Below are positions 9,977-26,162 of a stretch of DNA of 64,000 nt, in pieces. A model generated the notes under the pieces. The model had not been told where the DNA came from, did not search any database, and saw only the letters and a program-made list of their open reading frames with translations. A program made the translations under genes and the position numbers. The DNA comes from Alcanivorax sp. DP30 (GTDB taxonomy: Bacteria; Pseudomonadota; Gammaproteobacteria; Pseudomonadales; Alcanivoracaceae). The DNA is taken from assembly GCF_009882945.1 (NCBI RefSeq), contig NZ_WTUY01000002.1:374927-438926 (forward strand), read 5' to 3'. Each line of letters begins with the position of its first letter. Position 1 is the first letter of the stretch.

Positions 9977-10004
9977 TTGACACCCAGAGGGTGATGAGTA
10001 GAAT
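9977..10004 (+). promoter_or_regulatory. predicted strong sigma-70 promoter of the tRNA cluster
   Basis: A perfect TTGACA at 9977-9982 and TAGAAT at 9999-10004 are separated by 16 bases, 47 bases upstream of tRNA-Gly. It is one of the best consensus promoters in the window and is placed to drive the tRNA genes. Confidence 0.78.
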
Positions 10005-10051
10005 TCTTTCCCGCAACGAAGCACAGTTTTAGCGTGGCTTCTGACAACAAT

Positions 10052-10127
<76 letters not shown>

Positions 10128-10140
10128 GATTTCAGAAAAG

Positions 10141-10163
10141 CCTCGGTTCTACCGAGGTTTTTT
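10141..10163 (+). terminator. terminator-like hairpin between tRNA-Gly and tRNA-Cys
   Basis: A 7-bp stem CCTCGGT / ACCGAGG with a 3-base loop is followed by TTTTTT at 10158-10163. It looks like a complete intrinsic terminator but lies inside a tRNA cluster, only 17 bases before tRNA-Cys. It may therefore attenuate rather than end transcription. Confidence 0.65.
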
Positions 10164-10180
10164 CTTGTTAGCAGTTTAAA

Positions 10181-10254
10181 GGCGCGGTGGCAGAGTGGTT
10201 ATGCAGCGGACTGCAACTCCGTGTACGCCGGTTCGATTCCGACCCGCGCCTCCA
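10181..10254 (+). tRNA. tRNA-Cys (anticodon GCA)
   Basis: Acceptor GGCGCGG pairs with CCGCGCC, discriminator T, encoded CCA at 10252-10254. Anticodon stem CGGA-CTGCAAC-TCCG gives GCA. T-arm CCGGTTCGATTCCGG is complete. No promoter fits between the preceding hairpin and this gene, so it is probably read from the promoter upstream of tRNA-Gly. Confidence 0.98.
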
Positions 10255-10276
10255 ATTATCGACCCGTACGGTCACC

Positions 10277-10362
10277 GCCCGGGTGGCGAAATTGGTAGAC
10301 GCAACGGACTTAAAATCCGTTGACCTTTGGTCGTGCGGGTTCAAGTCCCGCCCCGGGCACCA
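10277..10362 (+). tRNA. tRNA-Leu (anticodon UAA)
   Basis: Acceptor GCCCGGG pairs with CCCGGGC, discriminator A, encoded CCA at 10360-10362. Anticodon arm ACGGA-CTTAAAA-TCCGT gives TAA. A long variable arm (TGACCTTTGGTCG) marks a class II leucine tRNA. It is the last gene of the Gly-Cys-Leu cluster, 22 bases after tRNA-Cys. Confidence 0.98.
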
Positions 10363-10428
10363 AACAAACCCTTCCTCCTGTCGTCCCAATTCTCCCGATT
10401 GTCAATGAAATCAATAGGATGGTAAATC

Positions 10429-10473
10429 CTGTTAAGGCTGTTTATTGCTGTTAAGGCCGCCTTTCTGTTAGCC
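10429..10473 (+). repeat. short direct repeats upstream of the hybrid kinase gene
   Basis: CTGTTAAGGC occurs at 10429-10438 and again at 10448-10457, and a shortened copy CTGTTAGCC lies at 10465-10473. The spacing is 19 and 17 bases, nearly two helical turns. The region is 75-120 bases before the kinase start, so it may be an operator. No regulator is assigned. Confidence 0.5.
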
Positions 10474-10546
10474 TCACACTTTAGTCTTAGCCCTGTTTCA
10501 GCGGGCATCAGAAAAACAAGGCCGGAAAGGCACGAGGGGCAACAGA

Positions 10547-13500
10547 ATGAACTGGTTTCAGAACCTGTCTGTCAGGTTGAAGATTCTGTCAGTGGCAGGG
10601 CTGGGTATCGCGCTTTTTGTGGTCTATGCGGCCTACAGTTATTACATTGCTGAAACGAATATCCACCACCTTGAGCGCATTGAAGACCAGGACTTTCCGG
10701 TTCTGGAGTTGGTCAATGCCAATAATGTGGATTTCATCGCCATCGGCGAGTCTTTTATTGCCGCCATTACCCAGGCCGACCCGGACCTGCTCCAGGAAGC
10801 GCTGGATCGTGCTGACAAGTTTGGTGATCGTCTCGAAGACATCCGTCGGACGGATCCTGAACTTTCTTCAAGTGTTGGTGAACTCAAGCAGAGCTTCGAA
10901 GCTTACATTGATGCGGCGGACAGCCTTGCCCGCAGCCTGATTAATGACTCAGCGGGTGACGCAGATATCTACCAGCGCATCACCCACGTTCGTGAATTAC
11001 AGAGCGGTTATGAGACTGCCCAGAAATCCTTCGAGACCCAGCGCTACGAAGCCTTCCGTGAGACCCTGAACAAAAGCAGAAATGATAATCAGGGAACACA
11101 GAAAATTGGCCTTTTCCTTGGCCTTGTTGCTTTCTCTGCACTGGCGTTGATCGCCTTGCGGGTTACCCGCGCCATTACCCTGCCCCTGGAAGGGGCGGTG
11201 ACCGCCGCTGACAATATCGCCGATGGAAAGTGGGATACCCCCATTGAATCCACTGGCCGTGATGAAACCGGCAAGTTGCTGCACGCAATTCGGAAGATGC
11301 GCGATGCCCTCGTCAAGCGGCACCAGGAAGACCGGCGCCAGGAAACCATCAAGAATCACCTAGCAGAATTGAATAACCGCATGCGCGGTGAAATGAGCTA
11401 TGAGCAGCTTGGCAACAATATGCTCAGTTTTCTGGTTCCGGTGCTGGATGCGCAGGTTGGGGCATTCTATAGCTTCAACCCGGAAACCCAGCGTCTGTCG
11501 TTGAGTAGTTCCTATGCCATGCAGCGTCGCAAGCACTTGGCAAACGATTTTGGTCTTGGCGAATCGCTGGTTGGCCAGTGCGCGTTAGAGCGCAAGACCA
11601 TCCTGCTTGAGCAGGTGCCAGAAGGGTATATCAGTATCAGTTCCGGTACCGGTGTGGGTGAAGCCCGGAATGTGGTGGTCATGCCGGTTATCCACGAGGA
11701 AGAACTGAAAGGGGTGTTGGAAATTGGCGCCTTCCGCCAGTTCACGGACAGTGATCTGGCTTTTCTGGATCAATCATCAGAGGTCATCGCGATTTCTGTA
11801 AGCAGCGCCATGAGCCGTATGCGAATGGCGGAAATGCTTGAGCAAACCCGTCAGCAGGCCATTGAGCTTGAAAAGCAGAAGGAGGAAATGGCTCAGGTCA
11901 ATAATGATCTCGAAGAGCAGGCCATGGAACTGTCGGCCTCGGAATCCCGTCTGCAGCAGCAGCAGGAAGAGCTCAAGGCGATCAATGAAGAGCTGGAGTC
12001 TCAGACCCAGGCCCTTCGCGCCTCGGAAGAAAGCCTGCAAGCCCAGCAGGAAGAGCTGAGGGTGACAAATGAAGAGCTGGAAGCACAGGCTCGTTTGCTC
12101 ACTGAGCAGAAATCAGAAATGGCTCAGAAGAACGATGAGCTGGAGCTTCTGCACCACGAACTGGAAGACAAGATTCGCGAGCTGGAATTGTCATCCAAGT
12201 ACAAATCCGAGTTCCTCTCTACAATGAGCCACGAACTTCGGACGCCACTGAACTCCATTCTTATCCTTTCCAACGCTCTGGGGCAGAACAAGAAGGGCAA
12301 TCTTAACGAGAAGCAGGTTGAGCATGCCCAGGTTATCCATTCCGCGGGCTCGGATCTGCTGAGCCTGATTAACGATATCCTCGATATTTCCAAGATCGAG
12401 GAAGGCAAGATGGATGTGGTGATTGATGATTTGTCACCCAATGAACTGGGCGAGCACTTCCAGCGTCACTTCTCCCATGTTGCAGAAAATCGCGGCCTGG
12501 AGTTTCACGTCAATGTGGGTGAGGACGTGCCGGAGCACTTCTACACCGACCGTCAGCGTCTTGAGCAAATCATCAAGAACCTGCTGTCCAATGCGTTGAA
12601 GTTTACCGAACAGGGATCGGTAACCCTGAGTATTGAGCGTCCGGATAGCAGCGACGCGCTCCCGCGCCACCTGACCGCCGACAAGGCTATCAAGCTGGCA
12701 GTAATCGATACCGGTGCCGGTATTCCGGCGGAGAAGCAGAAGCTCATCTTTGAGGCCTTCCAGCAAGCGGACGGTACAACCAGCCGGAAATACGGTGGCA
12801 CAGGCCTGGGGCTGACCATTTCCCGGGAACTGGCCCGCTTGCTTGGTGGTGAAATTGGGCTCTACAGCGACGGAGAAGGGCAGGGTGCCACCTTCACCCT
12901 TTATCTTCCTGAAGGCACGCCTGAGTCTCTTGAACAGGCAGATCAGGCGGCCGATCAAGATGCGAGCATCAGTTTTAACGCTGAGGCGCATACTGCAGCT
13001 CTGGTGTCCGAAAAATCTGCTGATGACGAGTTTGTGGTTCGGGAAAAAACCGTTCTTATCGTTGAAGACGATGAAGAGTTTGGCGGCGTTTTGTTGGAAC
13101 TGGCGGCTGACTACGGTCTTGAAGGGCATATCTGTCATGACGGTGAGGCGGGCCTTGAGTACGCAAGCCATTACCGGCCAAGTGCCATTATCCTTGATAT
13201 CGGGCTGCCAGGTATCGATGGCTGGGAGGTCATGGAGAAACTGAAGGCCGACCCGCGCACCAAGGATATCCCGGTCCACTTCCTGTCTGGTCGAGACGAG
13301 CGCAAGAAAGCGCTCGATCTTGGCGCCCTGGATTTGCTCACCAAGCCGGTTAATCAGGAGGACATCCTGTCGGCCTTTGCCAAAATCGAAGGTGCCATCG
13401 AAACCAATGTTCGCCGCCTGCTGGTGGTAGAAGACAGTGAAATACAGCACGAAAGCATCCGTGAGCTGTTCGACCAGAAAGGCGTCGAGATCACTGCAGC

Positions 13501-14218
13501 CACCAGTGGTCAGGAGGCGCTTGAAGCGCTCCGTTCCACCGTTTTTGATTGCATGATCCTGGATCTCACGCTGCCGGACATGTCGGGTTTCGAATTGCTG
13601 GAATTGATCAATAACAGCGACGATTACGACAGTGTTCCCGTGGTTATCTACACTGGCAAGGATCTTACCCGCGAGGAAGAGGCGAAGCTGCGCAAGTACG
13701 CGGATCGCATCATTCTCAAAACAGAACGCTCCCATGAACGTCTGCTCAATGAGGCATCGCTGTTCCTGCACTGGCTTGAATCCACGCTGCCAAGCAATCG
13801 TAATGCGCCATCGGATTCCTCTATCGAGCATCGTGACGATATCTTCGAGGGCAAGCAGCTGCTGCTGGTTGATGATGACATGCGCAATATTTATGCGCTG
13901 TCAGCGCAGCTGGAAGAGCTGGGTTTTGAGATCACCATCGCCAACAACGGCAAGGAAGCCCTGGACGCACTGGATGATAATCCGGCTATGGATATCGTGC
14001 TCATGGATATCATGATGCCGGAAATGGACGGCTATGAAGCCATGGGGCTGATTCGTGAGCAAGCGCGCTTCAAGAAACTGCCTATGCTGGCGTTGACCGC
14101 GAAAGCCATGAAAGATGATCGAGCAAAATGTATCGAAGCGGGGGCAAATGACTACTGCTCCAAACCAATTGACATGGCCAAGCTGACATCGCTTCTGCGT
14201 GTCTGGCTGCACAAATAA
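10547..14218 (+). CDS. membrane hybrid sensor histidine kinase with HAMP, GAF, coiled coil and three receiver domains
   Basis: A 1223-residue two-component kinase. Domain order: membrane helix (12-32), four-helix-type periplasmic sensor (33-185), second helix (187-204), HAMP (205-257), GAF (about 290-425), a long glutamate/glutamine-rich coiled coil (425-555), HisKA with phospho-acceptor His562 in MSHELRTPLNS, and HATPase (N-box NLLSNALKF, G-box DTGAGIP, GTGLGL). Three receivers follow, with predicted phospho-aspartates Asp884, Asp1006 and Asp1154. Receiver 2 looks more divergent and ends in a poor Lys region; receivers 1 and 3 have TKPVN and SKPID. It is 16 bases from cheR, so it heads the signalling module. 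The ligand is unknown. No Hpt domain is visible, so the phosphorelay would need another partner. Confidence 0.9.
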   Translation: MNWFQNLSVRLKILSVAGLGIALFVVYAAYSYYIAETNIHHLERIEDQDFPVLELVNANNVDFIAIGESFIAAITQADPDLLQEALDRADKFGDRLEDIRRTDPELSSSVGELKQSFEAYIDAADSLARSLINDSAGDADIYQRITHVRELQSGYETAQKSFETQRYEAFRETLNKSRNDNQGTQKIGLFLGLVAFSALALIALRVTRAITLPLEGAVTAADNIADGKWDTPIESTGRDETGKLLHAIRKMRDALVKRHQEDRRQETIKNHLAELNNRMRGEMSYEQLGNNMLSFLVPVLDAQVGAFYSFNPETQRLSLSSSYAMQRRKHLANDFGLGESLVGQCALERKTILLEQVPEGYISISSGTGVGEARNVVVMPVIHEEELKGVLEIGAFRQFTDSDLAFLDQSSEVIAISVSSAMSRMRMAEMLEQTRQQAIELEKQKEEMAQVNNDLEEQAMELSASESRLQQQQEELKAINEELESQTQALRASEESLQAQQEELRVTNEELEAQARLLTEQKSEMAQKNDELELLHHELEDKIRELELSSKYKSEFLSTMSHELRTPLNSILILSNALGQNKKGNLNEKQVEHAQVIHSAGSDLLSLINDILDISKIEEGKMDVVIDDLSPNELGEHFQRHFSHVAENRGLEFHVNVGEDVPEHFYTDRQRLEQIIKNLLSNALKFTEQGSVTLSIERPDSSDALPRHLTADKAIKLAVIDTGAGIPAEKQKLIFEAFQQADGTTSRKYGGTGLGLTISRELARLLGGEIGLYSDGEGQGATFTLYLPEGTPESLEQADQAADQDASISFNAEAHTAALVSEKSADDEFVVREKTVLIVEDDEEFGGVLLELAADYGLEGHICHDGEAGLEYASHYRPSAIILDIGLPGIDGWEVMEKLKADPRTKDIPVHFLSGRDERKKALDLGALDLLTKPVNQEDILSAFAKIEGAIETNVRRLLVVEDSEIQHESIRELFDQKGVEITAATSGQEALEALRSTVFDCMILDLTLPDMSGFELLELINNSDDYDSVPVVIYTGKDLTREEEAKLRKYADRIILKTERSHERLLNEASLFLHWLESTLPSNRNAPSDSSIEHRDDIFEGKQLLLVDDDMRNIYALSAQLEELGFEITIANNGKEALDALDDNPAMDIVLMDIMMPEMDGYEAMGLIREQARFKKLPMLALTAKAMKDDRAKCIEAGANDYCSKPIDMAKLTSLLRVWLHK

Positions 14219-14234
14219 GCGCCCGGAGAACGTG

Positions 14235-15095
14235 ATGGCGGAGTCATTTCCGATTGATGATGACGAGATCGATGTCGAAGACATCGAGATCCGCTTGCTA
14301 CTGGAAGCCATCTTCCAGATGTATGGATATGACTTTCGCTCATACAGCAAGGCATCCATACGCCGCCGCATCATGCACCGGCTTGGCATGTCCGGTTTTT
14401 CCAGCATTATGGAAATGACTGACAAGCTTCTCAGAGACAGGCGCTTTTTTGTCACCTTGCTGAATGACCTCACCGTCAATGTCACAGAAATGTACCGAGA
14501 CCCAGAGTTTTACCGGGCATTTCGGGAAGAGGTGGTGCCGGTCTTAAAAACCTATCCATTCATCAAGATATGGCATGCCGGTTGTTCAACCGGTGAAGAA
14601 ATCTACTCCATGGCAATTCTTCTTGAAGAGGAGGGGTTGTACGATCGTGCCATGATCTATGCCACTGACATTGATAAAAATGTCCTGGCAGCTGCAAAGA
14701 AAGGTATTTACTCCATCGAGGCAGTCAAGCAGTACGGCGATAACTATCGTCGCGCTGGCGGCAGACATTCTCTTTCGGACTATTTTACGGCCCGCTATGA
14801 CAGCGTGATCATGGACCAGAGGCTAAAGCGAAACATTGTATTCGCGGATCATGATCTGGCGACGGATCAGGTTTTCGGCGAAATGCACGTTGTTCTTTGC
14901 CGTAATGTGCTTATCTACTTCGACAGAGCGCTTCAAGAGCGTGTAATCCGGTTGTTTGTTGATAGTCTCGATATGGGAGGCTATCTATGTCTAGGTACCA
15001 AGGAAAGCTTGAAATTTACGGGTCAGGAAGAGGCCTTTGACATGATTAACCCGTCGCTGCGAATCTTCCGTAAGCGACAGATTCGACACCCCTGA
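14235..15095 (+). CDS. cheR: CheR-type protein-glutamate methyltransferase
   Basis: A 286-residue SAM-dependent methyltransferase of the CheR family, which methylates glutamates on chemoreceptors or, in some signalling systems, on other sensors. The N-terminal helical CheR domain (residues 10-80) contains YDFRSYSKASIRRRIMHRL and NDLTVNVTEMYRD. The SAM-binding motif I is HAGCSTGEEIYSMAI, and VLCRNVLIYFD is the late catalytic-domain motif. The start at 14235 has GGAG six bases upstream. It lacks the TPR or pentapeptide extension seen in many CheR proteins. It stands between a hybrid kinase and a receiver protein rather than a chemotaxis operon, so its substrate may be the kinase itself (inference). 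Confidence 0.92.
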   Translation: MAESFPIDDDEIDVEDIEIRLLLEAIFQMYGYDFRSYSKASIRRRIMHRLGMSGFSSIMEMTDKLLRDRRFFVTLLNDLTVNVTEMYRDPEFYRAFREEVVPVLKTYPFIKIWHAGCSTGEEIYSMAILLEEEGLYDRAMIYATDIDKNVLAAAKKGIYSIEAVKQYGDNYRRAGGRHSLSDYFTARYDSVIMDQRLKRNIVFADHDLATDQVFGEMHVVLCRNVLIYFDRALQERVIRLFVDSLDMGGYLCLGTKESLKFTGQEEAFDMINPSLRIFRKRQIRHP

Positions 15096-15115
15096 CGATT
15101 AATTAGAGAATTTTG

Positions 15116-15595
15116 ATGATTGAGCAGAAGTTGCTGTTAGTCGACGATCAACCTGCGAATCTGGTGTCCCTTGAAGCGGTACTGGAGGGTGAGGGGCGCA
15201 CGCTGATCAAGGCACATTCCGGTCAGGAAGCACTCAAAGTGCTACTCAAGGAAGACATAGCCCTCGTACTGCTTGATGTGCAGATGCCTGGCATGGATGG
15301 CTTTGAAGTGGCAGAGCTGATGCGACAGCGGAAAGATACCCAGACTATTCCGATCATTTTTGTCACCGCGATCAGCAAGGAAAAGAAATATGTCTTCAAG
15401 GGGTATCAGGCTGGCGCTGTGGATTATCTGTTCAAACCACTTGATCCGCTGATCCTCAAAAGTAAAGTGGATTTCTTTCTTGGGCTGGATCGTCAGCGCC
15501 GCGAACTGCAGGAAAAGCTCAAGCAGGCACAAGCACACCGTGCTGCCTATGAAGCCGGAAAGGCAAGCCGCGACGGAGGTGAAGGCAACGATTAG
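15116..15595 (+). CDS. single-domain response regulator with C-terminal helix
   Basis: A 159-residue receiver protein. It has LLLVDDQPANL, the phospho-acceptor Asp in LLDVQMPGMDGF and the lysine in DYLFKPLDP, so all phosphorylation residues are present. After the receiver (1-122) comes a charged helical tail (LDRQRRELQEKLKQAQAHR) with no DNA-binding domain. The [13 protein letters not shown] pattern marks the subfamily often paired with hybrid kinases and CheB/CheR. The ATG at 15116 is preferred; a TTG one codon earlier is possible. It ends on the same bases that begin the longer form of cheB, indicating an operon. Most of its receiver is near-identical to that of the PilZ protein at 16185. 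Confidence 0.88.
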   Translation: MIEQKLLLVDDQPANLVSLEAVLEGEGRTLIKAHSGQEALKVLLKEDIALVLLDVQMPGMDGFEVAELMRQRKDTQTIPIIFVTAISKEKKYVFKGYQAGAVDYLFKPLDPLILKSKVDFFLGLDRQRRELQEKLKQAQAHRAAYEAGKASRDGGEGND

Positions 15596-15606
15596 TGAGG
15601 GAATGC

Positions 15607-16176
15607 ATGGGGCCAGTGAAGGCTGTTGTCATGGGTGCATCCTGGGGAGGGCTTAACGCCTACACCCAGATTCTTGCTGCCTTGCCGGCTGACTTTCCTG
15701 CGGCCATCCTGCTGGTGCAACATCAACATGCCAGCTCGGAAAACCGGTTGCCGTGGCTGCTGGGGCGCTATTGCAAGCTCCCCGTTGTCGCTCCGGAAGA
15801 CAAGGAGCCTGTTTTACCGGGTCATGTTTATGTGGCGCCTCCCGGCTTTCACATGCTGGTTGAACAGGGAGAAACCGTGGCGTTTTCGGTGGCCCGTCCG
15901 GTTCATTACTCCCGACCGTCTGTGGATGAACTGTTTTTTTCAGCAGGCGTCGTTTATGGCGACCGTCTGGCCGCCGTAATTCTCACCGGGGCCAATGAAG
16001 ATGGCGCCGCAGGAATAGAATATATTCACCGACGTGGAGGCTTCACCATCGCACAGTCTCCCGTGAGTTCGGAAGCACCAACAATGCCCGAGTCGGCAAT
16101 AAAAACAGGTGCTGTTTCCAGGGTGCTTGATCTTGAACAGATTGGCCCTTACTTGGCGGAAAAGGTTGCAGGGTAG
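15607..16176 (+). CDS. cheB: CheB-type protein-glutamate methylesterase, catalytic domain only
   Basis: A 189-residue stand-alone CheB catalytic domain; ordinary CheB has an N-terminal receiver, which is missing here. The catalytic triad is visible as Ser in GASWGGLNA, His in VQHQH and Asp in ILTGANEDGAAGIE. In known systems this enzyme removes methyl groups from receptor glutamates and counteracts CheR. Without its own receiver, activity may be controlled by the separate receiver protein encoded just upstream (inference). I chose ATG 15607, which has GAGGGA five bases upstream, over GTG 15595. The next gene starts 8 bases after its stop. Confidence 0.9.
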   Translation: MGPVKAVVMGASWGGLNAYTQILAALPADFPAAILLVQHQHASSENRLPWLLGRYCKLPVVAPEDKEPVLPGHVYVAPPGFHMLVEQGETVAFSVARPVHYSRPSVDELFFSAGVVYGDRLAAVILTGANEDGAAGIEYIHRRGGFTIAQSPVSSEAPTMPESAIKTGAVSRVLDLEQIGPYLAEKVAG

Positions 16177-16184
16177 TTAATGCA

Positions 16185-17321
16185 ATGAAGCAAAATATTC
16201 TGGTTGTGGATGATCATAGGGAAAACCTGATTGCGCTCGAAGCAATTCTGGAAGGGGATAGTCGCAATCTTGTCATGGCACAATCGGGTAACGAGGCCCT
16301 GAATCTGGCGCTCAAGCACGATTTCGCTCTGGCATTACTCGACGTACAAATGCCGGACATGGACGGCTTTGAAGTCGCAGAACTGATGCGACAGAACAAG
16401 AAAACCCGCAATATTCCGATCATCTTTGTTACCGCGATCTCCAAAGAACAGAAATATGTTTTCCGTGGCTATGAATGCGGAGCCGTGGATTACCTGTTTA
16501 AGCCGATTGACCAAAAAATACTCGAAGCCAAGGTGAACGTCTTTCTTGAGCTGGACTTGCAACGCCGCAAGTTACAGAAAGCCGTGGTCCAGATGAAGCG
16601 GCTCAAGGATGAAAACGAGCGCTTGTTACATGCGTTGGGGGAGGCACTAGTGGGGGCTAACGCCAAAGGACAGATTACCTTCTGTAATGAGGCCGCTTGC
16701 GCACTGGTCAATCGGGATCGTGACAATCTGGTCGGGACAGACCTGTCATCCTTGTTGTTCAACGATGACACAGGCAAGCAACGCTGGCAGTGGAAGGATA
16801 ATCCGCTTCGGATTGCCTGTGAAAAAGGCGATGGCTGGAAAAATGAGCACCCGCTCTATGCCGACGATGGAAACGGCCTTGTTTCTCTGGCTTTGCGTGC
16901 CAATGCCATCATTGATGATGATGGTGGCTTTACGGGCGTCGTGGTTGTGGTTCGTCAAGCTGAAGACGAGAACGATGTCCGCGATAGCCGCAAGGATCAT
17001 CGTCGTCAGCCCCGCAAGAAGCTGTTCCGAGAAATGGTTGTGTTTGATCGCAGTACCGGTGGTAATGTGGGGCGCTTGATGAATCTGAGCCTGGATGGCT
17101 TCAAATTGTTTGCCCGCCGGGACATTGGGCCAGGTGAACGTCTTCATCTGGGCATGGTTCTGCCTGATCAGATTGCGGGTGTTAACACAATCAGTTTTGA
17201 TGCAAAGTCTGTTTGGTGTGAGAATCTCGATGCGCCAGGAGAGTTCCAGGCTGGCTTTCAGTTTGTGGACCTGAGCGACGTGACCCGACAAGTGATTGAA
17301 AACCTGATGGACAAGTACTGA
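16185..17321 (+). CDS. response regulator with receiver, PAS and PilZ domains
   Basis: A 378-residue protein. The receiver (1-125) has VVDDHRENL, phospho-Asp in [11 protein letters not shown] and [12 protein letters not shown]-like domain (about 145-260) has [21 protein letters not shown], and a C-terminal PilZ domain spans about 265-375. PilZ domains bind cyclic-di-GMP through RxxxR (here RRQPR) and [D/N]xSxxG (here NLSLDG); both are intact, so binding is expected. It carries no output catalytic domain. Its stop is two bases before the gspE ATG, so translation is probably coupled to the secretion ATPase. A role in joining phosphorylation and cyclic-di-GMP signals to type II secretion is inference from this position. 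Confidence 0.88.
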
Positions 17322-17323
17322 AC

Positions 17324-18826
17324 ATGACGGACCATGCGGAACACAGTGAAGTCCGGGCCTTGCCCCCATATTTGCTGCCTTACGGCTTTGCTCGCCGCTT
17401 TGGGGTAATGCTCCGTGAACGTGATGGCGGAAAGGAACTGTGTTACCGCAAGGACGTGTCCCTCTCGGCGTTAAGCGAAGTACAGCGCAAAATCGGCACG
17501 CTTCCCCATTTGGTGCCTATGGATGAAGCCAGCTTTAATGCTGCCATGGCGTTAACATATGAACAGCAGCGTGGCGCTGCCGCTGAAGCCGCTGATGATC
17601 TGGAAGGGCTGGATCTTGCCAGTCTGGCCGATTCGCTTCCTGAAACCTCGGATCTCCTGGAGCAGGAAGATGACGCCCCGATTATTCGCTTGATCAATGC
17701 TCTGCTGCAGGAGGCTATTCGCGAGGACGCGTCGGATATCCATATCGAGACCTTTGAACGCCGTCTTGTGGTGCGTCTGCGTGTTGACGGCGTATTGAGG
17801 GAGGTTCTCGCCCCCAAGCGGGAGTTGGCTCCGCTGCTTGTTTCACGTATCAAGGTAATGGCTCGTCTGGATATCGCAGAAAAGCGGGTGCCTCAAGACG
17901 GGCGGATTTCTCTAAGGCTGGGCGGCCGTGATGTGGATGTAAGGGTGTCAACCATGCCATCCAGCAATGGCGAGCGGGTTGTTCTGCGTCTGCTTGACAA
18001 GCAGGCAGGGCGCCTGGACCTGGCTCATCTGGGCATGGAAAAACAGAACGACGCGATGATGCGCGAGCTTATCAGCAAGCCCCATGGCATCATCCTGGTC
18101 ACCGGTCCCACTGGCTCGGGCAAGACCACAACCCTGTATGCGTCGCTGACGGAACTCAACGACAGTTCACGCAATATCCTCACCGTGGAAGACCCCATCG
18201 AATACCAGCTGGAAGGCATCGGCCAGACGCAGGTGAACAGCAAGGTAGACATGACCTTTGCCCGGGGCTTGAGAGCCATCCTCCGCCAGGACCCCGATGT
18301 GGTCATGGTGGGCGAAATCCGTGACCTGGAAACCGCAGAAATTGCCGTACAGGCATCGCTTACAGGTCACTTGGTACTTTCCACCCTGCATACCAACACC
18401 GCTGTCGGTGCGGTAACCCGACTTCAGGATATGGGCATTGAGCCGTTTCTGTTGTCCAGCTCTCTGCTGGGCGCGCTGGCTCAGAGGCTGGTGCGCGTGC
18501 TCTGTGATGACTGCAAGACTCCCTATGAGCCCTCTGCAGGTGAAAAGACACTGATAGGACTCCGGGAAGACGAAGCCTGCACACTCTATCATCCCAATGG
18601 ATGTGAGCATTGTAACAACCAGGGTTATCGCGGACGTACCGGCATTTACGAGCTGGTCATCATCGATGAAACCATGCGCCAGTTGATTCATGATCAGGCG
18701 GGCGAACTTGCCCTGACGCGTCACGCCCGCACTCTGACAGGCAGCATCCGTGAAGATGGCTGGCGCAAGGTGCTGGCAGGACAGACCAGTGTTGAAGAAG
18801 TTCTGCGCGTAACCCGCGAAGACTGA
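17324..18826 (+). CDS. gspE: type II secretion system ATPase GspE
   Basis: The 500-residue hexameric cytoplasmic ATPase that powers pseudopilus assembly in type II secretion. The N-terminal domain (1-115) is of the GspE N1 type. The catalytic part shows [10 protein letters not shown], Walker [11 protein letters not shown] (around residue 262), the Asp box [16 protein letters not shown], the His box [11 protein letters not shown] and a tetracysteine zinc element (CDDCKTPYE and CEHCNN). All catalytic features are intact. It is followed 13 bases later by gspF and preceded by two bases by the PilZ-receiver gene. gspC and gspD, usually upstream of gspE, are absent here. Confidence 0.97.
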
Positions 18827-18839
18827 CGGGGTTACGTCC

Positions 18840-20060
18840 ATGCCAGCATTCGAGTTTCGCTCCCTCGACCACAAGGGCAAAATCCGCAAAGGGACCATGG
18901 AGGCCGACAGTGCCCGGCAGGTGCGACAGCAACTGCGGGACAAGGGCTGGGTGCCGATTGAGGTCAATGAGACTCGTGACACTGACGCCAGTGCAGGCAT
19001 GAATCTGTTTTCCTCCTCGGGCAAGCTCAAGGGGGCAGAACAGGCACTAATCACTCGTCAGCTCGCGACCTTGCTGAAATCTGGGCTCCCCATCGAGCAG
19101 GCGCTTTCTGCCGTGGCCAAACAGGCCGCCAATGACCGTATCGAGCGCATCATGCTGGCGGTAAGGGCCCGTGTACGGGAAGGCTATAGTCTGGCGAAAA
19201 GCTTTGAGTCATTCCCGCGGGCCTTCCCGGAAATGTACCGCGCCACGGTAGATGCGGGAGAGCAGAGCGGGCATCTCGAGCAAGTGCTGGAGCAATTGGC
19301 GGATTATCTGGAAACCCGGCATGACACAGGCCGATCGGTTACCCAGGCAATGATCTATCCAGCATTCATCATGGTGTTTGCCTCCATCGTCATCATGCTG
19401 ATGATGACCTTTGTTGTTCCCAAACTGGTTGCCGTGTTCGAAGGGCGCGATCAGGCGCTGCCCTTGTTGACACGAATTGTCATGGCAATGAGTGATTTCT
19501 CACGGGATTGGGGCTGGCTGCTGTTGCTTGTGATCATTGTCGGGATAGTAGCGTTCAGTCGAGCCATGCGCGGTGCCGCTTTCCGAATGCGGGTGCATCG
19601 CCGGCTTGCCGGGATGCCCTTGGTGGGCACCATGCTGAGGGCAGCTGATAGCGCAAGACTTGCCAGTACTCTGGGCATTCTGGGCCGCTCTGGCGTCCCG
19701 TTGGTAGACGCACTGTTTATCGCGGCTCAAGTGGTCGGCAATCTGGCGATCCGTGACGCCGTCAAACAGGCTGCCGTGAAGGTGCGGGAAGGCGGAAACC
19801 TCAGCCGTGCACTCGATGCCAGCGGCTATTTCCCTCCCATGCTCGTGCAGATGATTGCCAGTGGTGAGGCTAGCGGTGAGCTTGATCACATGCTGACGCG
19901 GGCCGCAGATTATCAGGAACGGGAACTCACCAGCACGGTCAATACCATGGTGGGCCTCCTTGGCCCCATCATGTTGTTGGTGATGGCGGGTATAGTGGTA
20001 ATGATAGTGCTCTCGGTGATGATGCCGATCATGCAAATGAACAATATGTTAGGTGGATAA
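18840..20060 (+). CDS. gspF: type II secretion inner-membrane platform protein GspF
   Basis: A 406-residue polytopic membrane protein of the inner-membrane platform that contacts GspE and GspL. Two repeated T2SSF cytoplasmic domains are seen: LITRQLATLLKSGLPIEQAL (from residue 67) and SARLASTLGILGRSGVPLVDAL (from about 271). Three hydrophobic helices occur around 170-195 (AFIMVFASIVIMLMMTF), 222-245 and at the C-terminus (LLGPIMLLVMAGIVVMIVLSV). The N-terminal PAFEFRSLDHKGKIRKG is the family's opening. It lies between gspE and gspG with short gaps. Confidence 0.97.
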   Translation: MPAFEFRSLDHKGKIRKGTMEADSARQVRQQLRDKGWVPIEVNETRDTDASAGMNLFSSSGKLKGAEQALITRQLATLLKSGLPIEQALSAVAKQAANDRIERIMLAVRARVREGYSLAKSFESFPRAFPEMYRATVDAGEQSGHLEQVLEQLADYLETRHDTGRSVTQAMIYPAFIMVFASIVIMLMMTFVVPKLVAVFEGRDQALPLLTRIVMAMSDFSRDWGWLLLLVIIVGIVAFSRAMRGAAFRMRVHRRLAGMPLVGTMLRAADSARLASTLGILGRSGVPLVDALFIAAQVVGNLAIRDAVKQAAVKVREGGNLSRALDASGYFPPMLVQMIASGEASGELDHMLTRAADYQERELTSTVNTMVGLLGPIMLLVMAGIVVMIVLSVMMPIMQMNNMLGG

Positions 20061-20063
20061 ACA

Positions 20064-20498
20064 ATGAAGACCCTGAAACACCAGAAAGCCATGTCCGGTT
20101 TTACGCTGCTGGAGATCATGGTGGTCGTGGCCATTATCGGCCTGCTTGCTGCAGTCATCGTTCCTAATGTGATTGGTCAGGGCGAAGGTGCCAAGGTGGA
20201 TCTCACCAAGGCCAATATGGGCAAGATCGTTCAACAGTTGGACCTCTACAAGTTCAACAATGGTAGCTACCCGACTACAGAGGAAGGCCTGAACGGTCTT
20301 GTCGAACGCCCAGCCTCTGCCAGCAAGTGGCCGGATGGCGGTTATCTGTCCAAGGTGCCTGAAGATGCGTGGAACAATGATTACGTCTACCTCAGTCCTG
20401 GCGTTGATGGCCCCTTCGACCTGTTGTCACTGGGGGCTGATGGGGTAGAAGGTGGCGAGGGTAACGACGCGGATATCAACTGGCGTGACGTGCAGTAA
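20064..20498 (+). CDS. gspG: major pseudopilin GspG
   Basis: The main subunit of the type II secretion pseudopilus. The 144-residue precursor has a short basic leader ending in Gly, cut before Phe in G/FTLLEIMVVVAIIGLLAAVI, with the conserved Glu at position +5. The globular part contains PTTEEGLNGLV, and the C-terminal segment, rich in aspartate (LSLGADGVEGGEGNDADI), matches the calcium-binding loop of GspG proteins. It starts 3 bases after gspF. The prepilin peptidase (GspO/PilD) needed to process it is not in the window. Confidence 0.97.
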   Translation: MKTLKHQKAMSGFTLLEIMVVVAIIGLLAAVIVPNVIGQGEGAKVDLTKANMGKIVQQLDLYKFNNGSYPTTEEGLNGLVERPASASKWPDGGYLSKVPEDAWNNDYVYLSPGVDGPFDLLSLGADGVEGGEGNDADINWRDVQ

Positions 20499-20500
20499 TC

Positions 20501-21160
20501 ATGATCTCTGCGGCTCGTCAGACTGGCTTCACACTGCTGGAAATTCTGGTAGTGGTGATGCTTGTCGGGCTGCTCACGGCCGTAATCGCTGGCCAGGGTA
20601 ACTGGACACTCAGTGAGGATGGGCTGGATGAGGAATCCGCCCGGCTTTATGACACCCTGGAATTGCTCAACGAACGGAGTCTGTTCTCCGGGCAGCTACT
20701 CGCTCTGCGGTTGAGCCCGGATGGCTGGACACCACTGGCCTATGATCGTGATGAGCGTGACTTCCTTCCCATTGATGATTCATCGTTAAAACCACGCACC
20801 CTCGCCCCAAATCTGTCAGTGGAATGGCAAGTCGATGCGCTGGAAGATGAGCAGGTGACATTGTCCGATATGGCAGAATCCCTCATCAAGGATGATCTCA
20901 TGGCCACCCCTGAGGGGCTCAGTGAGCAGGCCGAAATAGAAGAGGGTAGTGAGCAGCGGACAGAATCCAGCGACAGCAATAAAGAAAAAACGCTTCCGCA
21001 AATCTTCTTCTTCCCCAGTGGCGAGGTCACCCCAGTCACCGTGTCATTGCTTTCCGGCGATGAACTGGACAGTTTTCGTCGCTGGCAGGTTAGCGCCCTT
21101 GGGCAGGTAACCGACCCGGATGCTGAGCCTGAGGACGAAGTCCTTGAGGAGACGCCCTGA
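20501..21160 (+). CDS. gspH: minor pseudopilin GspH
   Basis: A 219-residue prepilin-like protein with cleavage motif G/FTLLEILVVVMLVGLLTAVI and Glu+5. The C-terminal domain contains FFFPSGEVTPVTVSLL, typical of GspH. It is longer than most GspH proteins. The extra length is an acidic, low-complexity stretch around residues 125-170 (including EQAEIEEGSEQRTESSDSN) between the two halves of the globular domain. It begins two bases after the gspG stop and shares the last base of its stop with the gspI start. Confidence 0.93.
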   Translation: MISAARQTGFTLLEILVVVMLVGLLTAVIAGQGNWTLSEDGLDEESARLYDTLELLNERSLFSGQLLALRLSPDGWTPLAYDRDERDFLPIDDSSLKPRTLAPNLSVEWQVDALEDEQVTLSDMAESLIKDDLMATPEGLSEQAEIEEGSEQRTESSDSNKEKTLPQIFFFPSGEVTPVTVSLLSGDELDSFRRWQVSALGQVTDPDAEPEDEVLEETP

Positions 21161-21543
21161 TGAAAGGCGCGCGCAGCCAGGGCTTTACTCTTATCGAGGT
21201 GCTGATCGCTGTTTCGATTCTTGCTCTGGTTATGGTCACCCTGGGTCAGACCCTGGGCGCCAGTGCCCGAGCCTACACCAACATCAATGAAACCCATCTC
21301 GGTTTTCTGGTCGCATCTGACAAGCTGGTTGAAATGCAGGTTTATCAGCAGTGGCCGCCTACCGGTCAATCCGACAGTGAAGTTAGCCGAAATGGGCGTG
21401 ACTGGTGGATCGAAACCATTGTGTCCGAAGGGCCGTACCCCGATACCCGCCGGGTAGACATCAATGTGGGGCTACTGCGAGGCGATGAAAAGGAAGGACT
21501 GGCCTACCACCTTGCCAGTCTTGTCGGGAAGCCTGCCACATGA
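21160..21543 (+). CDS. gspI: minor pseudopilin GspI
   Basis: A 127-residue minor pseudopilin with cleavage motif G/FTLIEVLIAVSILALVMVTL. With GspJ and GspK it forms the complex at the tip of the pseudopilus. The globular domain has ETHLGFLVASDKLVEMQ, like the family's helix after the stem. Its ATG overlaps the gspH stop by one base, and its own stop overlaps the gspJ start by four bases. Length and order are normal. Confidence 0.95.
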   Translation: MKGARSQGFTLIEVLIAVSILALVMVTLGQTLGASARAYTNINETHLGFLVASDKLVEMQVYQQWPPTGQSDSEVSRNGRDWWIETIVSEGPYPDTRRVDINVGLLRGDEKEGLAYHLASLVGKPAT

Positions 21544-22175
21544 AGTTTCAACGCCGGCTATTGGGTTTCACGCTGCTGGAAATGGTCGTTACCATTGCCA
21601 TTTTCGCGTTTATCTATGTGTGGGCCGCATCCTTCCTCAGTAGCGCATTGCGGGGGCGGGAACAGCTAACGGAAAGCGCCGATGAGATGGAGCGTAGTCA
21701 GCGCGCAATGACCTTCCTTACCCTGGACTTTGAGCAACTGGTCAGTCGCCCGGTTCGAGACCCCTATGGAGACCCCCAGCCTGCCATCATCGGCCGGGAC
21801 AACTATGTGGAGTTCACCCGTCTGGGCTGGTCGAATCCATTCGGTCTACGCAAGCGCAGTGAAATGCAGCGGGTGATCTACACCCTGGAAAACGGCGACC
21901 TCTATCGCCGCTACTGGCCAGTACTGGACACCTCTGTCGCCACCCGTTATCAGCAGGACATTCTGCTGGAGAATGTGGCGCGCTTTACGGTTCGCTACCT
22001 GGATCTCACTCCGCAGGGGGACTGGCAATGGGTGGAGTTCTGGCCAGATGCTGCGCTCGCGACCCAGCCGGTGTGGCTACAGAGACTACCCAAGAGCATA
22101 GAGATTGAAATTGAGTTGGAAAGTGGTGACGTTATTCATCGCTTTTACCGCACGGTGGTGAATCCGTGGGCGTGA
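21540..22175 (+). CDS. gspJ: minor pseudopilin GspJ
   Basis: A 211-residue pseudopilin, the GspJ component of the pseudopilus tip. The precursor has the cleavage motif G/FTLLEMVVTIAIFAFIYVWA with Glu+5. The globular domain includes RAMTFLTLDFEQLVSRPVRD and the terminal IEIEIELESGDVIHRFYRTV, which are usual for GspJ. It overlaps gspI by 4 bases and gspK by 10 bases, so the tip subunits are translated as a coupled set. Confidence 0.95.
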   Translation: MKFQRRLLGFTLLEMVVTIAIFAFIYVWAASFLSSALRGREQLTESADEMERSQRAMTFLTLDFEQLVSRPVRDPYGDPQPAIIGRDNYVEFTRLGWSNPFGLRKRSEMQRVIYTLENGDLYRRYWPVLDTSVATRYQQDILLENVARFTVRYLDLTPQGDWQWVEFWPDAALATQPVWLQRLPKSIEIEIELESGDVIHRFYRTVVNPWA

Positions 22176-23206
22176 TCAAGCGCTATCAGCACGGGATGGC
22201 ACTGATTATCGTGCTGATGCTGTTTGCCATTCTGTCTACGCTGGCCATGGAGATCCTGTTTAGGCAGAACCGTTTCCTGAATCGGGCCGACAACCTGCTG
22301 CAATGGGACAAGCGCTATCAGTACGCCATGGCTGCCGAGGTGGTTGCCCAGCAGGGCTTGATAGACGATCTTCAAGATGACATTAAGAATAATGCGCAAC
22401 TTGATGATTGTGTTGAAGAAAAATGGGCTGTTCAGTTGCCGCCAACTCCCTATGAGGATGCTTTTTTAAGCGCCAGCGTTCAGGATCTACAGGGGCGATT
22501 CAATCTCAATTGGCTGATTGCAGACAGTCCTGACGGCTTTGTTCGCCAGCAGGACAGGGTCAGAGAGCTGGAGCAATTGCTCGACGAAATTCTGCCTGAC
22601 CAGAGCAACCCGGGCCGTCTAGCCAACGAGATGGCGGACTGGCTGGACAGCAACAACATCGTGGACGAGGCAGAAGGCGCAGAGGACCCGGAATACCGCG
22701 ACCGTCGTACCCCGAACATGCCGGCCACCCACGAGAGTGAGCTGCGGGCCTTGCTGGGTTTCCAGGCCACAGACATGCCGGAAGATCCCATGGCATGGGG
22801 ATTACTGACTGCATTGCCCCCCGGCACTAGTCTTAATGTCAATACGGCCCCGCAACAGGTTTTAAATGCTGTGGTAGGCTCATTGGCGGGGCCGGAAGGG
22901 GTGAAAGCCATCATCGATTCTCGCAAGGAAGAGCCTATTTCTGACATTGGTTCACTGCTGGCCATGCCGGTATTCTCAGAAATGGACGAAGAGGATCGTG
23001 ACCTGCTCAATGCCCGTCTTGGAGTGAGTAGCGAGTATTTCCAGGTCATGGTGGATGTTGAGGTAGATGGCCAGTTGAGCAGACTGGTGACTCGCCTGTT
23101 CCGCGGCGGAGGGGAGGGGGAGCCAACCGCGGTTGTCAGTCGTCAGGTCAGCCCCCTGCTGACACCCCTCGAACCTGCCTGTAATCCTTTCTACAATGAG
23201 GAATAA
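22166..23206 (+). CDS. gspK: type II secretion minor pseudopilin GspK
   Basis: A 346-residue large minor pseudopilin that caps the pseudopilus. After a short leader with QHG/MALIIVLMLFAILSTLAMEI, position +5 is not Glu, which is normal in GspK. The large helical domain contains QDLQGRFNLNWLI and the C-terminal SLNVNTAPQQVLNAVV with PISDIGSLLAMP, both GspK hallmarks. The start is GTG at 22166, overlapping the end of gspJ. The protein ends six bases before the TTG of the longer gspL form. Confidence 0.95.
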   Translation: MGVIKRYQHGMALIIVLMLFAILSTLAMEILFRQNRFLNRADNLLQWDKRYQYAMAAEVVAQQGLIDDLQDDIKNNAQLDDCVEEKWAVQLPPTPYEDAFLSASVQDLQGRFNLNWLIADSPDGFVRQQDRVRELEQLLDEILPDQSNPGRLANEMADWLDSNNIVDEAEGAEDPEYRDRRTPNMPATHESELRALLGFQATDMPEDPMAWGLLTALPPGTSLNVNTAPQQVLNAVVGSLAGPEGVKAIIDSRKEEPISDIGSLLAMPVFSEMDEEDRDLLNARLGVSSEYFQVMVDVEVDGQLSRLVTRLFRGGGEGEPTAVVSRQVSPLLTPLEPACNPFYNEE

Positions 23207-23248
23207 CGGCTATTGTGGCCAACAATAACGAATAAAGGATCAGATTCA

Positions 23249-24391
23249 GTGTCACAAGCTCCACTCATTTATCTCTACGACATTGACGGGTTACCGGTAA
23301 GCGGTGCCACCCAGGTGCTGTTCCAGGCTGACAGCGGTTCTCCGGTGATATCGCAGAGCCTCGATGAGGCCTTTTCCGAGGCGGCGATGCGGGGTCAATT
23401 GCGGCTGGTCCTATCTGCGCCACTGGTGCGTCTTACCCAGGTGACACTGAGCCGCAAGCAGGCACGGCATCTCGATAGAGTGATGCCATATCTGCTTGAA
23501 GAAAACCTGCTGGATAGCCCCGATTCGCTTTTCTTCAATTACCGCAAAGGCGAGGGGGATGAGTATCTTGTGACCGCGATCGAGCAGTCACTGGTTACAA
23601 CCCTGCTTGATCGCGCTTCTGACGCGGGAGCCGACCTGCAGACAGTGGAAGTGGACATTGAATGTCTTGCAGGTTCCTTCCCTTTGATTGTGGGGCTGCC
23701 GCAGGGGCAAAGTCTGCTTGCCTCCAGCCGTGATTCCTATCTTATTGTGGATGAAGAAAGACGACAGTCTCTTGTCCCCCTGTTTGGCGATTCGCTGGAT
23801 CACGCCACGGAAATTGAGGCGCAAGAAGCGTTGTTTGATCTGTTCAGACAGCATCGTGGTCAGCAGCTCCTGACAGGGGTCCATGCTCCCCGCAAAAACG
23901 CTGGTGAGCCCGGTCTATTGGCCGAATGGCGTCCATTACTGATCCTCGCAGCCTCAATCCTGGTACTGGCCATTATCGGGCTGCGTGTTCAAGCGTGGCG
24001 CTACGACCAGGCTGCCGAAGCCGCCTTGGCCGATGCCAAGGGAAAGTACGAGCAATTGTTCCCCGGCGACAAAGCCACTTCTGCTCTGATTCGGCAGTTT
24101 CAGAGTCGTTTGTCCCGCCTTTCCAGCGGTGGGGGCTCAGCTGGCACAGCCTTCTTCCCCATGCTGGTTCCTGTTGCTGAAGTACTCAGGGAAAGCAAGG
24201 TGGAGCCAAAACGGCTTCAGTATGACCAGCGTCAGAACAGTCTTTTGCTGGATGTGGGAGCCAAGGATTATGCCCAGCTTGAGGCGCTGCAGAACGCCTT
24301 GCGCGATCAGGGTGCCAAGGCATCCATTGCCAACTACCGCAACGCCGCTCAGGGTGTAAATGCCAGAATCAAAGTGGAGCAGCCAGGATGA
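23249..24391 (+). CDS. gspL: type II secretion platform protein GspL
   Basis: A 380-residue bitopic membrane protein that links GspE in the cytoplasm to GspM and GspF. The cytoplasmic part (1-235) has the actin-like fold signatures RHLDRVMPYLLEENLLDSPD and LPQGQSLLASSRDSYLIVDE. One membrane helix follows (LLILAASILVLAIIGLRVQ, about 241-259), then a periplasmic ferredoxin-like domain. The start is GTG at 23249, preceded by AAGGA at ten bases; a TTG twelve codons upstream is less likely because it lacks a ribosome site. Confidence 0.93.
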   Translation: MSQAPLIYLYDIDGLPVSGATQVLFQADSGSPVISQSLDEAFSEAAMRGQLRLVLSAPLVRLTQVTLSRKQARHLDRVMPYLLEENLLDSPDSLFFNYRKGEGDEYLVTAIEQSLVTTLLDRASDAGADLQTVEVDIECLAGSFPLIVGLPQGQSLLASSRDSYLIVDEERRQSLVPLFGDSLDHATEIEAQEALFDLFRQHRGQQLLTGVHAPRKNAGEPGLLAEWRPLLILAASILVLAIIGLRVQAWRYDQAAEAALADAKGKYEQLFPGDKATSALIRQFQSRLSRLSSGGGSAGTAFFPMLVPVAEVLRESKVEPKRLQYDQRQNSLLLDVGAKDYAQLEALQNALRDQGAKASIANYRNAAQGVNARIKVEQPG

Positions 24392-24897
24392 GCCTTGCGA
24401 CCTATCAGCAACAGCTTAAACAACGGCTAAGCCCGCTGGTTCAGTGGTATCGGAGCAGGGAGCCCCGCGAGCAAAGAGTGCTGCAACTTCTCGGCGCAGT
24501 TTTTGTTGTGGTGCTGATCTATTGGCTGCTATGGGCGCCGAGCGTCAATGCACGCAATCAATCGATGCAGCGGTACGTGGCCAATATGCAGACGCTGGAG
24601 TGGATCAATGCCAATGAAGGAGCCGTCAGGGCAGCATCCGGTGGCAAGGCATCTGCACTACCTCGAAACTGGGTGGGCGAAGTCAGCCGCAGTGCCAATG
24701 CATTTGGTTTGACCCTCAAGAATTTTACCCCGGACGGTAACACCTCTGTCCGAATTCAAATGGAAGAGCAGGCAGCAGGCCAGAGCATTCTCTGGCTGCA
24801 ATCCCTTCAGGAAAAAGGGGTGCAAATTACCAACCTGGAAATGACACCAGGTGAAAAATCAGGGACAGCCACGGTGCGTGCAACCTTACAACAATAA
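24388..24897 (+). CDS. gspM: type II secretion platform protein GspM
   Basis: A 169-residue bitopic protein that stabilises GspL. A short cytoplasmic N-terminus (PLVQWYRSREPREQRVLQLL) precedes one membrane helix (LGAVFVVVLIYWLLWAPS, about 34-52) and a periplasmic domain with LPRNWVGEVSRSANAFGL. RSREPREQRVLQLLG is the usual GspM opening. It overlaps gspL by four bases (ATGA) and its final base is shared with the next start, so the following unknown gene is clearly in the same operon. Confidence 0.92.
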   Translation: MSLATYQQQLKQRLSPLVQWYRSREPREQRVLQLLGAVFVVVLIYWLLWAPSVNARNQSMQRYVANMQTLEWINANEGAVRAASGGKASALPRNWVGEVSRSANAFGLTLKNFTPDGNTSVRIQMEEQAAGQSILWLQSLQEKGVQITNLEMTPGEKSGTATVRATLQQ

Positions 24898-26162
24898 TGA
24901 CCCTACTCAGATTTTTGCCACTCCCGTTACTGCTTTTGGGAGCAGAAGCGAATGCGCAGTGCCTGTTTGATCCTGTCGATCAGGGCAAGGTGATGAAGCT
25001 ATCCGCATCCCGGCTGGATTCCGCCAAGGGGTTGCCCTTGGCGGATCTTTCCCTTATGCGGGTGGAAAACGGTCAGCTGGTCCCCGTAGCCTTCCAGTTT
25101 GACGAAATGTCGGATCATGGCATGGTGTGGTTTGAAGAGTCAGGCTTTGACCGCATCGGTGAGGCCGGGCGCCTTGATGGTGACGACCGTTTGCTGGCGA
25201 TGCTGACCGATGCCGGGCCCCGTCGGCCAGACGGCCTGGAGCCCCGCGAGGGCAAACTGCTGGCCGACCTTGAAGTGGCGACTGACTGCCACTTCTATTT
25301 GGTCAAAGGCAACCGTCAGCGAAGTGAAAACTATTACGTCTCCCACGACAGCGACACTGGCCGCACCCGCACGGCGCTCTACCAGCTGGATGTAGATCCG
25401 GATAATGAGCTTAACTGGCGTTACCTCAGTTATCGCGGCTATCAAGGGGAAGGTTCTATCATCGATACCCTGAAGATGCGCATGAGCGCCGGGGTGTTGT
25501 CCAAATTTACCCGCATGACCCTGGATAATTACAACCTGCGTCCGCAGCTGGTTGGTCACCACGTGGGGCCCATTCGTTCTGTGATGCACCTTCGCACCCG
25601 GGTAGTGCTTGCCGGTATCCCGGTAATGACTATCCAGGTTCAGGCCATGCGTTATGCCACTCATTATGAAGCGCACACCTACGCCAAGATTCCCGAGCTA
25701 TACCGCGCCACGCTGAAAGAGCCCGAAGTGTCGGTCACGGTGGATGGCAACAATCAACTTGGCGCCCAGGTTTATACCCACAATTTCGCCGATAATCCGA
25801 TCACCGTTAATGGCGTGGCGGATGATGACAGTTTTGCCGGGCAACCCATCAGCATGTCTGAAAACTGGATTCTTTTTGACAGTGGCAAGGATTTCACCTT
25901 GCTGACAGAACTGACCGTGCCGCCGGAATTGATGTCCGTGCCATTGAGCCTGATTTATCAGGATAACAAGCAGCTCACTGTGGAGCCGGAGCAGTTCGAG
26001 GGCCAGCTACCCAACCTGGGTTACATGTTGAAGGGATGGCCGGAACAACGGGAATTGCGTTTTACGGTCAGCCTGTTCTTTGACAGCAGCATGCGAGGGT
26101 TTGCAGCCGAAGAGTACGCCGATCAGCGCTCACGGCATGTAGAGGTTCGTGTTTCACCGTGA
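24897..26162 (+). CDS. uncharacterised exported protein at the end of the type II secretion operon
   Basis: A 421-residue protein I do not recognise. It has an N-terminal signal peptide (TLLRFLPLPLLLLGAEANA before Gln), and the mature part looks periplasmic or outer-membrane associated, rich in strands and aspartate, with no further membrane helix. Recurrent features are ADLSLMRVENGQLVPVAFQF, RTALYQLDVDPDNELNWRYL and KDFTLLTELTVP. It occupies the place of gspN in several operons, but it is longer than GspN and I see none of the GspN sequence pattern. The one-base overlap with gspM (TAATGA) shows coupling. Its job is inferred only from position: a secretion accessory or a dedicated substrate-related factor. 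Confidence 0.7.
   Translation: MTLLRFLPLPLLLLGAEANAQCLFDPVDQGKVMKLSASRLDSAKGLPLADLSLMRVENGQLVPVAFQFDEMSDHGMVWFEESGFDRIGEAGRLDGDDRLLAMLTDAGPRRPDGLEPREGKLLADLEVATDCHFYLVKGNRQRSENYYVSHDSDTGRTRTALYQLDVDPDNELNWRYLSYRGYQGEGSIIDTLKMRMSAGVLSKFTRMTLDNYNLRPQLVGHHVGPIRSVMHLRTRVVLAGIPVMTIQVQAMRYATHYEAHTYAKIPELYRATLKEPEVSVTVDGNNQLGAQVYTHNFADNPITVNGVADDDSFAGQPISMSENWILFDSGKDFTLLTELTVPPELMSVPLSLIYQDNKQLTVEPEQFEGQLPNLGYMLKGWPEQRELRFTVSLFFDSSMRGFAAEEYADQRSRHVEVRVSP

Follow-up and report, generated by a model that had tools for sequence, protein, structure and literature searches.

A REC-PAS-PilZ protein encoded directly before gspE in Alcanivorax, read as the receptor-type output of a Cfc-like signalling cassette

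Introduction

How type II secretion is adjusted after assembly of its machinery is little known. MapZ, which in P. aeruginosa binds the methyltransferase CheR1, is a stand-alone PilZ protein. A signalling system close in layout to the locus described here is Cfc of P. putida, for which the cited passages describe a hybrid kinase (CfcA), CheR/CheB components (CfcB, CfcC), CfcD and a cyclase, CfcR, of REC-PAS-GGDEF-EAL architecture, with CfcA of the cfcABCDE set being needed for CfcR to act as a cyclase (PMC4951495, PMC6849547). The Cfc output acts on c-di-GMP and biofilm, and the same source remarks, as an unpublished result, that the phenotype survived mutation of the other cfc genes (PMC4951495). 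Among secretion-type ATPases, MshE and PA14_29490 are reported to bind c-di-GMP, in work whose canonical GspE test proteins belonged to other branches (PMC4624772), and in X. citri a PilZ protein is reported to bind ND1 of PilB, a domain common to PilB and GspE, at a face apart from the GspL/PilM face (PMC8389850). In A. borkumensis c-di-GMP affects colony form, in an account that names no PilZ protein in the passages cited (PMC6440734). Among the titles and abstracts covered by our literature search, with subscription papers and preprints mostly outside its scope, none describes a PilZ-bearing cassette joined to gspE, and none came up for REC-PAS-PilZ.

The cassette and the gsp genes

The window, i.e. 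the whole 64,000-nucleotide stretch of Alcanivorax sp. DP30 DNA that was analysed, contains a plus-strand gene run (10547-24897) that leads from a hybrid kinase through CheR, a lone receiver, CheB and a REC-PAS-PilZ protein to gspE-gspM with intergenic gaps of -20 to 17 bp. Its features are as follows.

10547..14218, plus strand: hybrid histidine kinase (Pfam, hydropathy and motif check)
14199..15095, plus strand: CheR methyltransferase (Pfam CheR, CheR_N)
15113..15595, plus strand: lone receiver (Pfam; own-genome search)
15595..16176, plus strand: CheB methylesterase domain without receiver (Pfam)
16185..17321, plus strand: REC-PAS-PilZ protein, 378 aa (Pfam, 38-row alignment, structure model)
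16341..16343, plus strand: codon of the phospho-acceptor Asp53, invariant in 38/38
17001..17015, plus strand: PilZ RxxxR motif, residues 273-277, with R273 and R277 invariant in 38/38
17082..17099, plus strand: PilZ NxSxxG motif, residues 300-305, with N300 and G305 in 38/38 and S302 in 35/38
17324..18826, plus strand: GspE, type II secretion ATPase with an N1E domain and no MshEN (TIGR02533, PF22341)
18840..24897, plus strand: gspF to gspM (F, K, L and M by family models; G-J by position and pseudopilin-like N-termini)

The kinase comprises two TM-like segments, HAMP, GAF, HisKA and HATPase domains and three receivers, with the phospho-accepting His at 561 (SHELRTPL) located by motif check. 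The value of -20 bp is the kinase-CheR overlap and depends on the CheR start, which is probably ATG 14235, as the matches to orthologues mostly begin at residues 10-18. Between 15113 and 16176 lies a split CheB, in which a lone receiver gene overlaps a receiver-less CheB catalytic domain by one base. GspE scores 713.8 bits against TIGR02533 (cut-off 630.25), which assigns it to type II secretion. Scans of 9900-17500 gave 6 promoters (5.3 expected), the best of which (9977-10004) is just upstream of tRNA genes, and 11 terminators (8.4 expected); as these counts are near expectation, transcription units were inferred from the gene gaps alone. Downstream, the gene at 24897-26162 shares one base with gspM and encodes a 421-aa protein with a signal-like N-terminus, to which no Pfam or NCBIfam model matches; it follows gspM in many Alcanivoracaceae loci and was undetected in the Alloalcanivorax loci among those compared. 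The window holds no secretin and secretin-domain places occur elsewhere in the genome (G000:C19:41788, G000:C22:57134 and G000:C22:417545), so the outer-membrane part of the type II secretion system (T2SS) must be encoded away from gspE-M.

Domains, motifs and predicted fold of the PilZ protein

The sequence-only reading of this DNA had noted that the PilZ gene ends two bases before the gspE ATG (17324) and that both PilZ motifs and the phospho-acceptor residues of the receiver are intact; both observations are confirmed, and more strongly than first stated. All 17 genus loci offer a possible, in-frame gspE start codon -1 to +3 bp away from where the PilZ gene stops, and the 2-bp spacing is thus a feature of the genus. 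The closest named loci are those of Alcanivorax. Outside the genus, gspE starts are assigned with less certainty, and some loci may have a gap as wide as about 100-185 bp. Pfam assigns REC to residues 5-117 (4e-25), PAS to 144-257 (6.7e-9) and PilZ to 272-375 (1.4e-7, 32.2 bits against a cut-off of 22.5), and finds no DNA-binding domain in the regulator. Across 38 aligned orthologues, REC residues D9, D10, D53, T83 and K106 and PilZ residues R273, R277, N300 and G305 are identical throughout, and position 302 is S in 35, T in 2 and G in 1.

The full-length model (mean pLDDT 83.3) has a pTM of 0.42, so the relative placement of its domains is uncertain; REC and PAS are connected by a single long helix (residues 110-151). 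Receivers took up the fold matches of the full-length model, and the PilZ domain was therefore modelled by itself (pLDDT 86.9, pTM 0.76), giving a PilZ beta-barrel. Both Foldseek and VIA match this domain best to PilZ structures, the majority of them c-di-GMP complexes: Foldseek returns 4xrn (6.5e-6), 4rt0 and 5y6f, and VIA returns 3kyf as the best (Z 13.3, 111 residues, 3.0 A), then 5kec (Z 13.2, without ligand), 4xrn_D (13.2) and 5y6g (12.8). The pilus PilZ in complex with PilB is listed low by VIA (7lkm_D, Z 6.1, 82 residues, 3.2 A). The PAS-PilZ profile, searched against PDB sequences, matched only the PAS half or the residues immediately after it. The pilus PilZ of the X. citri PilZ/PA2960 group is not known to carry the RxxxR motif, which the PilZ domain of the window has. 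The model agrees with the predicted binding of c-di-GMP and gives no preference to the PilB mode of PilZ action.

The own-genome search with REC-PAS gave 31 matches, which besides the protein itself include two close receivers (65% and 58% identity), the rest being at most 38% identical; a REC-PAS-GGDEF-EAL relative is absent among them. The long PilZ protein on G000:C19, considered as a paralogue on the basis of frame length, was rejected because its ORF has PilZ at the very start, followed by a TM-like part.

Relation to Cfc cassettes

As in P. putida Cfc, a GAF hybrid kinase is followed here by CheR, CheB and a receiver protein, with a REC-PAS regulator as the c-di-GMP output. In the place of a REC-PAS-GGDEF-EAL output, which Pfam does not find, the window regulator ends in PilZ. 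Its gene lies inside the cluster, whereas cfcR is an orphan in P. putida, and, unlike Cfc, the cassette is joined to gsp genes and has a separate receiver and a receiver-less CheB. We read the gene, by layout and not by orthology, as a Cfc-like output in which a receptor would replace the cyclase end. That the gene is the output end of such a cassette is the point that the earlier reading had missed, and it puts the kinase and CheR on at least an equal footing with GspE as candidate partners.

Of 390 order genomes, 77 have relatives of CheR at 1e-70, with identity to the window CheR of at least 63% in the 22 PilZ genomes and at most 58% in the rest. Among 20 cassette loci without PilZ, 12 have REC-PAS-GGDEF or REC-PAS-GGDEF-EAL outputs and 4 have REC-kinases (one example per main kind checked with Pfam); of the remaining four, L315 and L316 are cut by contig ends, L332 has kinase and CheR only and L333 has another order. 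No T2SS gspE lies near any of the 20 within the stretches examined. The sensor half of this signalling cassette is thus constant, and its output varies between making and reading the messenger. In three f29 loci (L319, L323, L325) the cassette ends in GGDEF-EAL, and two shorter matches to secretion ATPases, consistent in L319 with the PilT/PilU family, are located ~4.6 kb away.

Conservation of the link to gspE

The PAS-PilZ part is present in 44 of 46 family genomes (7 of 8 genera) and the gspE N-terminus in all 46; in 44/44 PilZ-bearing genomes the two matches share a strand and are no more than 190 bp apart, judged by eye from their coordinates. The adjacency of PilZ and gspE in the family is more than chance. 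The two genomes that lack PAS-PilZ, G030 (86% complete) and G031 (99% complete), have gspE with other genes upstream and no cassette, so GspE does not need the cassette. A set of 36 named loci, drawn largely from these genomes, has CheR, receiver and CheB ahead of the PilZ gene without exception and the kinase in 35, the remaining contig beginning inside cheR; gspE comes after PilZ in 35 of them, 34 with a distance of up to 191 bp and L114 with one of 2.3 kb. CheR and CheB are accordingly stricter neighbours of PilZ than gspE is. The flank on the other side of the cassette is looser than the gspE flank: once 7 loci with less than 2.5 kb ahead of the kinase match had been set aside, 29 were left, of which 18 have pgsA upstream of the kinase and 11, including L114 and L116 from outside the family, do not.

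As controls we used 80 of 87 listed gspE places, from 77 genomes, with ~5 kb on each side (some limited by contig ends). Our own HMM for PilZ of the REC-PAS-PilZ subtype, which also missed the PilZ of L005, found none near these 80 loci, and there was no match to CheR, CheB, the receiver or the PilZ protein at 1e-12; kinase matches numbered 2. Pfam PilZ matched in 68 of the 77 control genomes, and none of the matches listed lay, by eye, within 5 kb of gspE, the nearest being at 7.2 kb (G533). As the HMM is limited in reach and PilZ was checked among the best matches, independent PilZ-gspE pairs may occur elsewhere.

Distribution and history

In the 390 order genomes the PAS-PilZ query matches 66, of which 44 in part and 22 over the full length; the latter fall in four families (18 in f1, G070 in f26, G080 in f36, and G161 and G102 in f17). 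In 369 class genomes the profile matches 20 at 1e-20, over the full length only in the own genome and G080, and of 19 loci around other class matches two (L143, L150) have kinase, CheR, CheB and REC-PAS. In G070 and G080, single genomes of two other families, the cassette lies upstream of gspE at 1.7-2.3 kb. In G080 it is on the gspE strand, with two opposite-strand genes between, one of which encodes an MscS-type channel. In both f17 genomes the cassette is present and gspE is on other contigs beside other genes.

A quick, midpoint-rooted FastTree of GspE (95 rows) places the four families with the PilZ cassette in one clade (0.845), with G070 beside f17; as the linked taxa lie in one clade, a single linkage event may explain them. 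In the CheR tree G070 falls among Alcanivoracaceae and f17 joins the GGDEF-EAL rows weakly (89/61); the PilZ label needs two changes, and long branches meet. One row labelled GGDEF_EAL, L316, comes from a contig that ends inside REC-PAS. One origin of the PilZ output is likely, although one and two origins are indistinguishable on this tree. The tie to gspE would be either ancestral and lost in f17, or later.

These patterns bear on the view that the proximity reflects history only, i.e. that the cassette was inserted once before gspE and shares its transcription or reads through into it, with PilZ controlling, e.g., exopolysaccharide or pili. The unlinked f17 loci, the two of 46 family genomes that lack the cassette, the confinement of linked taxa to one GspE clade and the fairly conserved wider synteny (pgsA in 18/29 testable loci) are all in agreement with this view. 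Linkage in 44/44 genomes over seven genera, the absence of the pgsA side in 11/29 loci and the tight gspE starts of the 17 genus loci argue against it, and we regard it as unlikely. At gene level, then, a likely c-di-GMP receptor has a conserved association with the T2SS genes.

In G070 a REC-PAS-GGDEF-EAL gene lies between the REC-PAS-PilZ gene and gspE (L064:6624-8744), placing a likely c-di-GMP enzyme, receptor and secretion ATPase in a row.

CheR as a partner

A canonical PilZ protein beside a CheR methyltransferase recalls P. aeruginosa MapZ-CheR1 (5xly, 5y4r), and differs from it in that the window PilZ is fused to REC-PAS and encoded in the same cluster as CheR. The c-di-GMP-loaded PilZ protein could accordingly bind CheR, CheB or the kinase and adjust methylation of the kinase, with the gsp genes as mere neighbours. 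Such feedback has to be taken seriously, since PilZ is accompanied by CheR more strictly than by GspE: CheR, receiver and CheB precede PilZ in 36/36 named loci, against gspE after it in 35, and cassette and PilZ occur together in f17 without gspE. The PilZ model, moreover, matches MapZ bound to CheR1 (5xly_B, Z 11.0, 99 residues, 2.7 A; 5y4r_D, Z 11.4), and the window CheR matches CheR1 by sequence (5xly_A, 2e-17). MapZ is, however, not the best match, as other canonical PilZ proteins score 12.5-13.3; related cassettes retain CheR without any PilZ, and the conserved tie to gspE would be left unexplained. We consider this feedback unlikely.

GspE as a candidate target

GspE shares with the MshEN-type ATPases (MshE, PA14_29490; passages of PMC4624772) its GspE/PilB class and a proposed control by c-di-GMP. 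It differs in having no MshEN (PF05157) at E up to 10 for residues 1-112 or at 0.001 for the whole protein, which carries GSPE_N1E instead, and so cannot be controlled in that way; PilB and one further ATPase of the same genome carry MshEN. An outside c-di-GMP receptor would therefore not be redundant for GspE. The X. citri PilB-PilZ-FimX set (as described in the cited parts of PMC8389850) likewise combines a PilZ protein, a secretion-type ATPase and a REC-PAS-GGDEF-EAL protein, all of which are found in G070; unlike that set, the window has a canonical PilZ fused to REC-PAS, and its ATPase is a GspE without the ND0 subdomain. With PilB F101, R103 and F108 placed via an inferred numbering offset of 10, the aromatic pair of the PilZ-binding face is kept in the PilB of the own genome. 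GspE gave no sign of such a face in what is a weak alignment: BLASTP of the PilB and GspE N-domains left the region out, and hhalign gave a probability of 0.3%.

The earlier proposal that the adjacent PilZ protein controls the ATPase stands as far as the conserved gene-level tie and the canonical PilZ domain are concerned; a PilB-like face gave no sign in the weak alignment, and the link is imperfect. Direct control of GspE by the PilZ protein, with contact as the hypothesis, is plausible given their adjacency, their likely co-production, a regulator without a DNA-binding domain and a GspE without MshEN. In its most specific form, replacement of the cyclase end of a Cfc-type regulator would have yielded a fused FimX/PilZ-like adaptor that acts on GspE solely when phosphorylated and c-di-GMP-loaded. 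This would amount to a two-signal gate on type II secretion, and we hold it to be quite unlikely.

Proposed mechanism

What we observed directly is the order of the genes, their domains and motifs, how these are conserved, and an output unlike that of the related GGDEF-EAL cassettes; onto this we place a Cfc-like phosphorelay that lacks a chemoreceptor, has a c-di-GMP receptor as output and is genetically joined to the T2SS; we give this explanation about an even chance. The membrane kinase would sense a signal and be tuned by CheR and CheB, for which its Glu/Gln-rich coiled coil, seen by inspection, is a possible methylation target. As the lone receiver and the receiver of the PilZ protein are 65% identical, phosphate would pass to both the former and D53 of the latter. 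The PilZ domain, with its motifs and fold, is expected to bind c-di-GMP, and the doubly gated protein, having no DNA-binding domain, would act by contacting proteins of the secretion machinery that this gene run also encodes, with GspE as the first candidate and other Gsp parts as possible targets.

The 44/44 linkage set against the looser pgsA flank, the linkage in G070 and G080, the lack of gspE near PilZ-less cassettes, the lack of CheR, CheB and PilZ-protein matches at the control gspE loci, the lack of MshEN in GspE and the resemblance of the PilZ model to c-di-GMP-bound structures suggest such a phosphorelay; the unlinked f17 loci, the cassette-less G030 and G031, the single GspE clade, the remark on cfc mutants and the lack of any sign of a PilB-like face speak against it. 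In Alcanivorax-type oil degraders the last cassette gene has a messenger-sensing end in the position of the messenger-making end of the relatives, and its position before the secretion genes suggests secretion control. For a GspE of this kind, without its own c-di-GMP site, a dedicated protein gated by phosphate and c-di-GMP would be a direct handle on secretion, one that would apply in organisms living on oil surfaces.

Elsewhere in the genome, on G000:C20 (L166:8178-9939), a gene for a serine/threonine protein kinase has as its neighbour the lone receiver with 58% identity to the REC domain of REC-PAS-PilZ, and this receiver could be a further target of the cassette histidine kinase.
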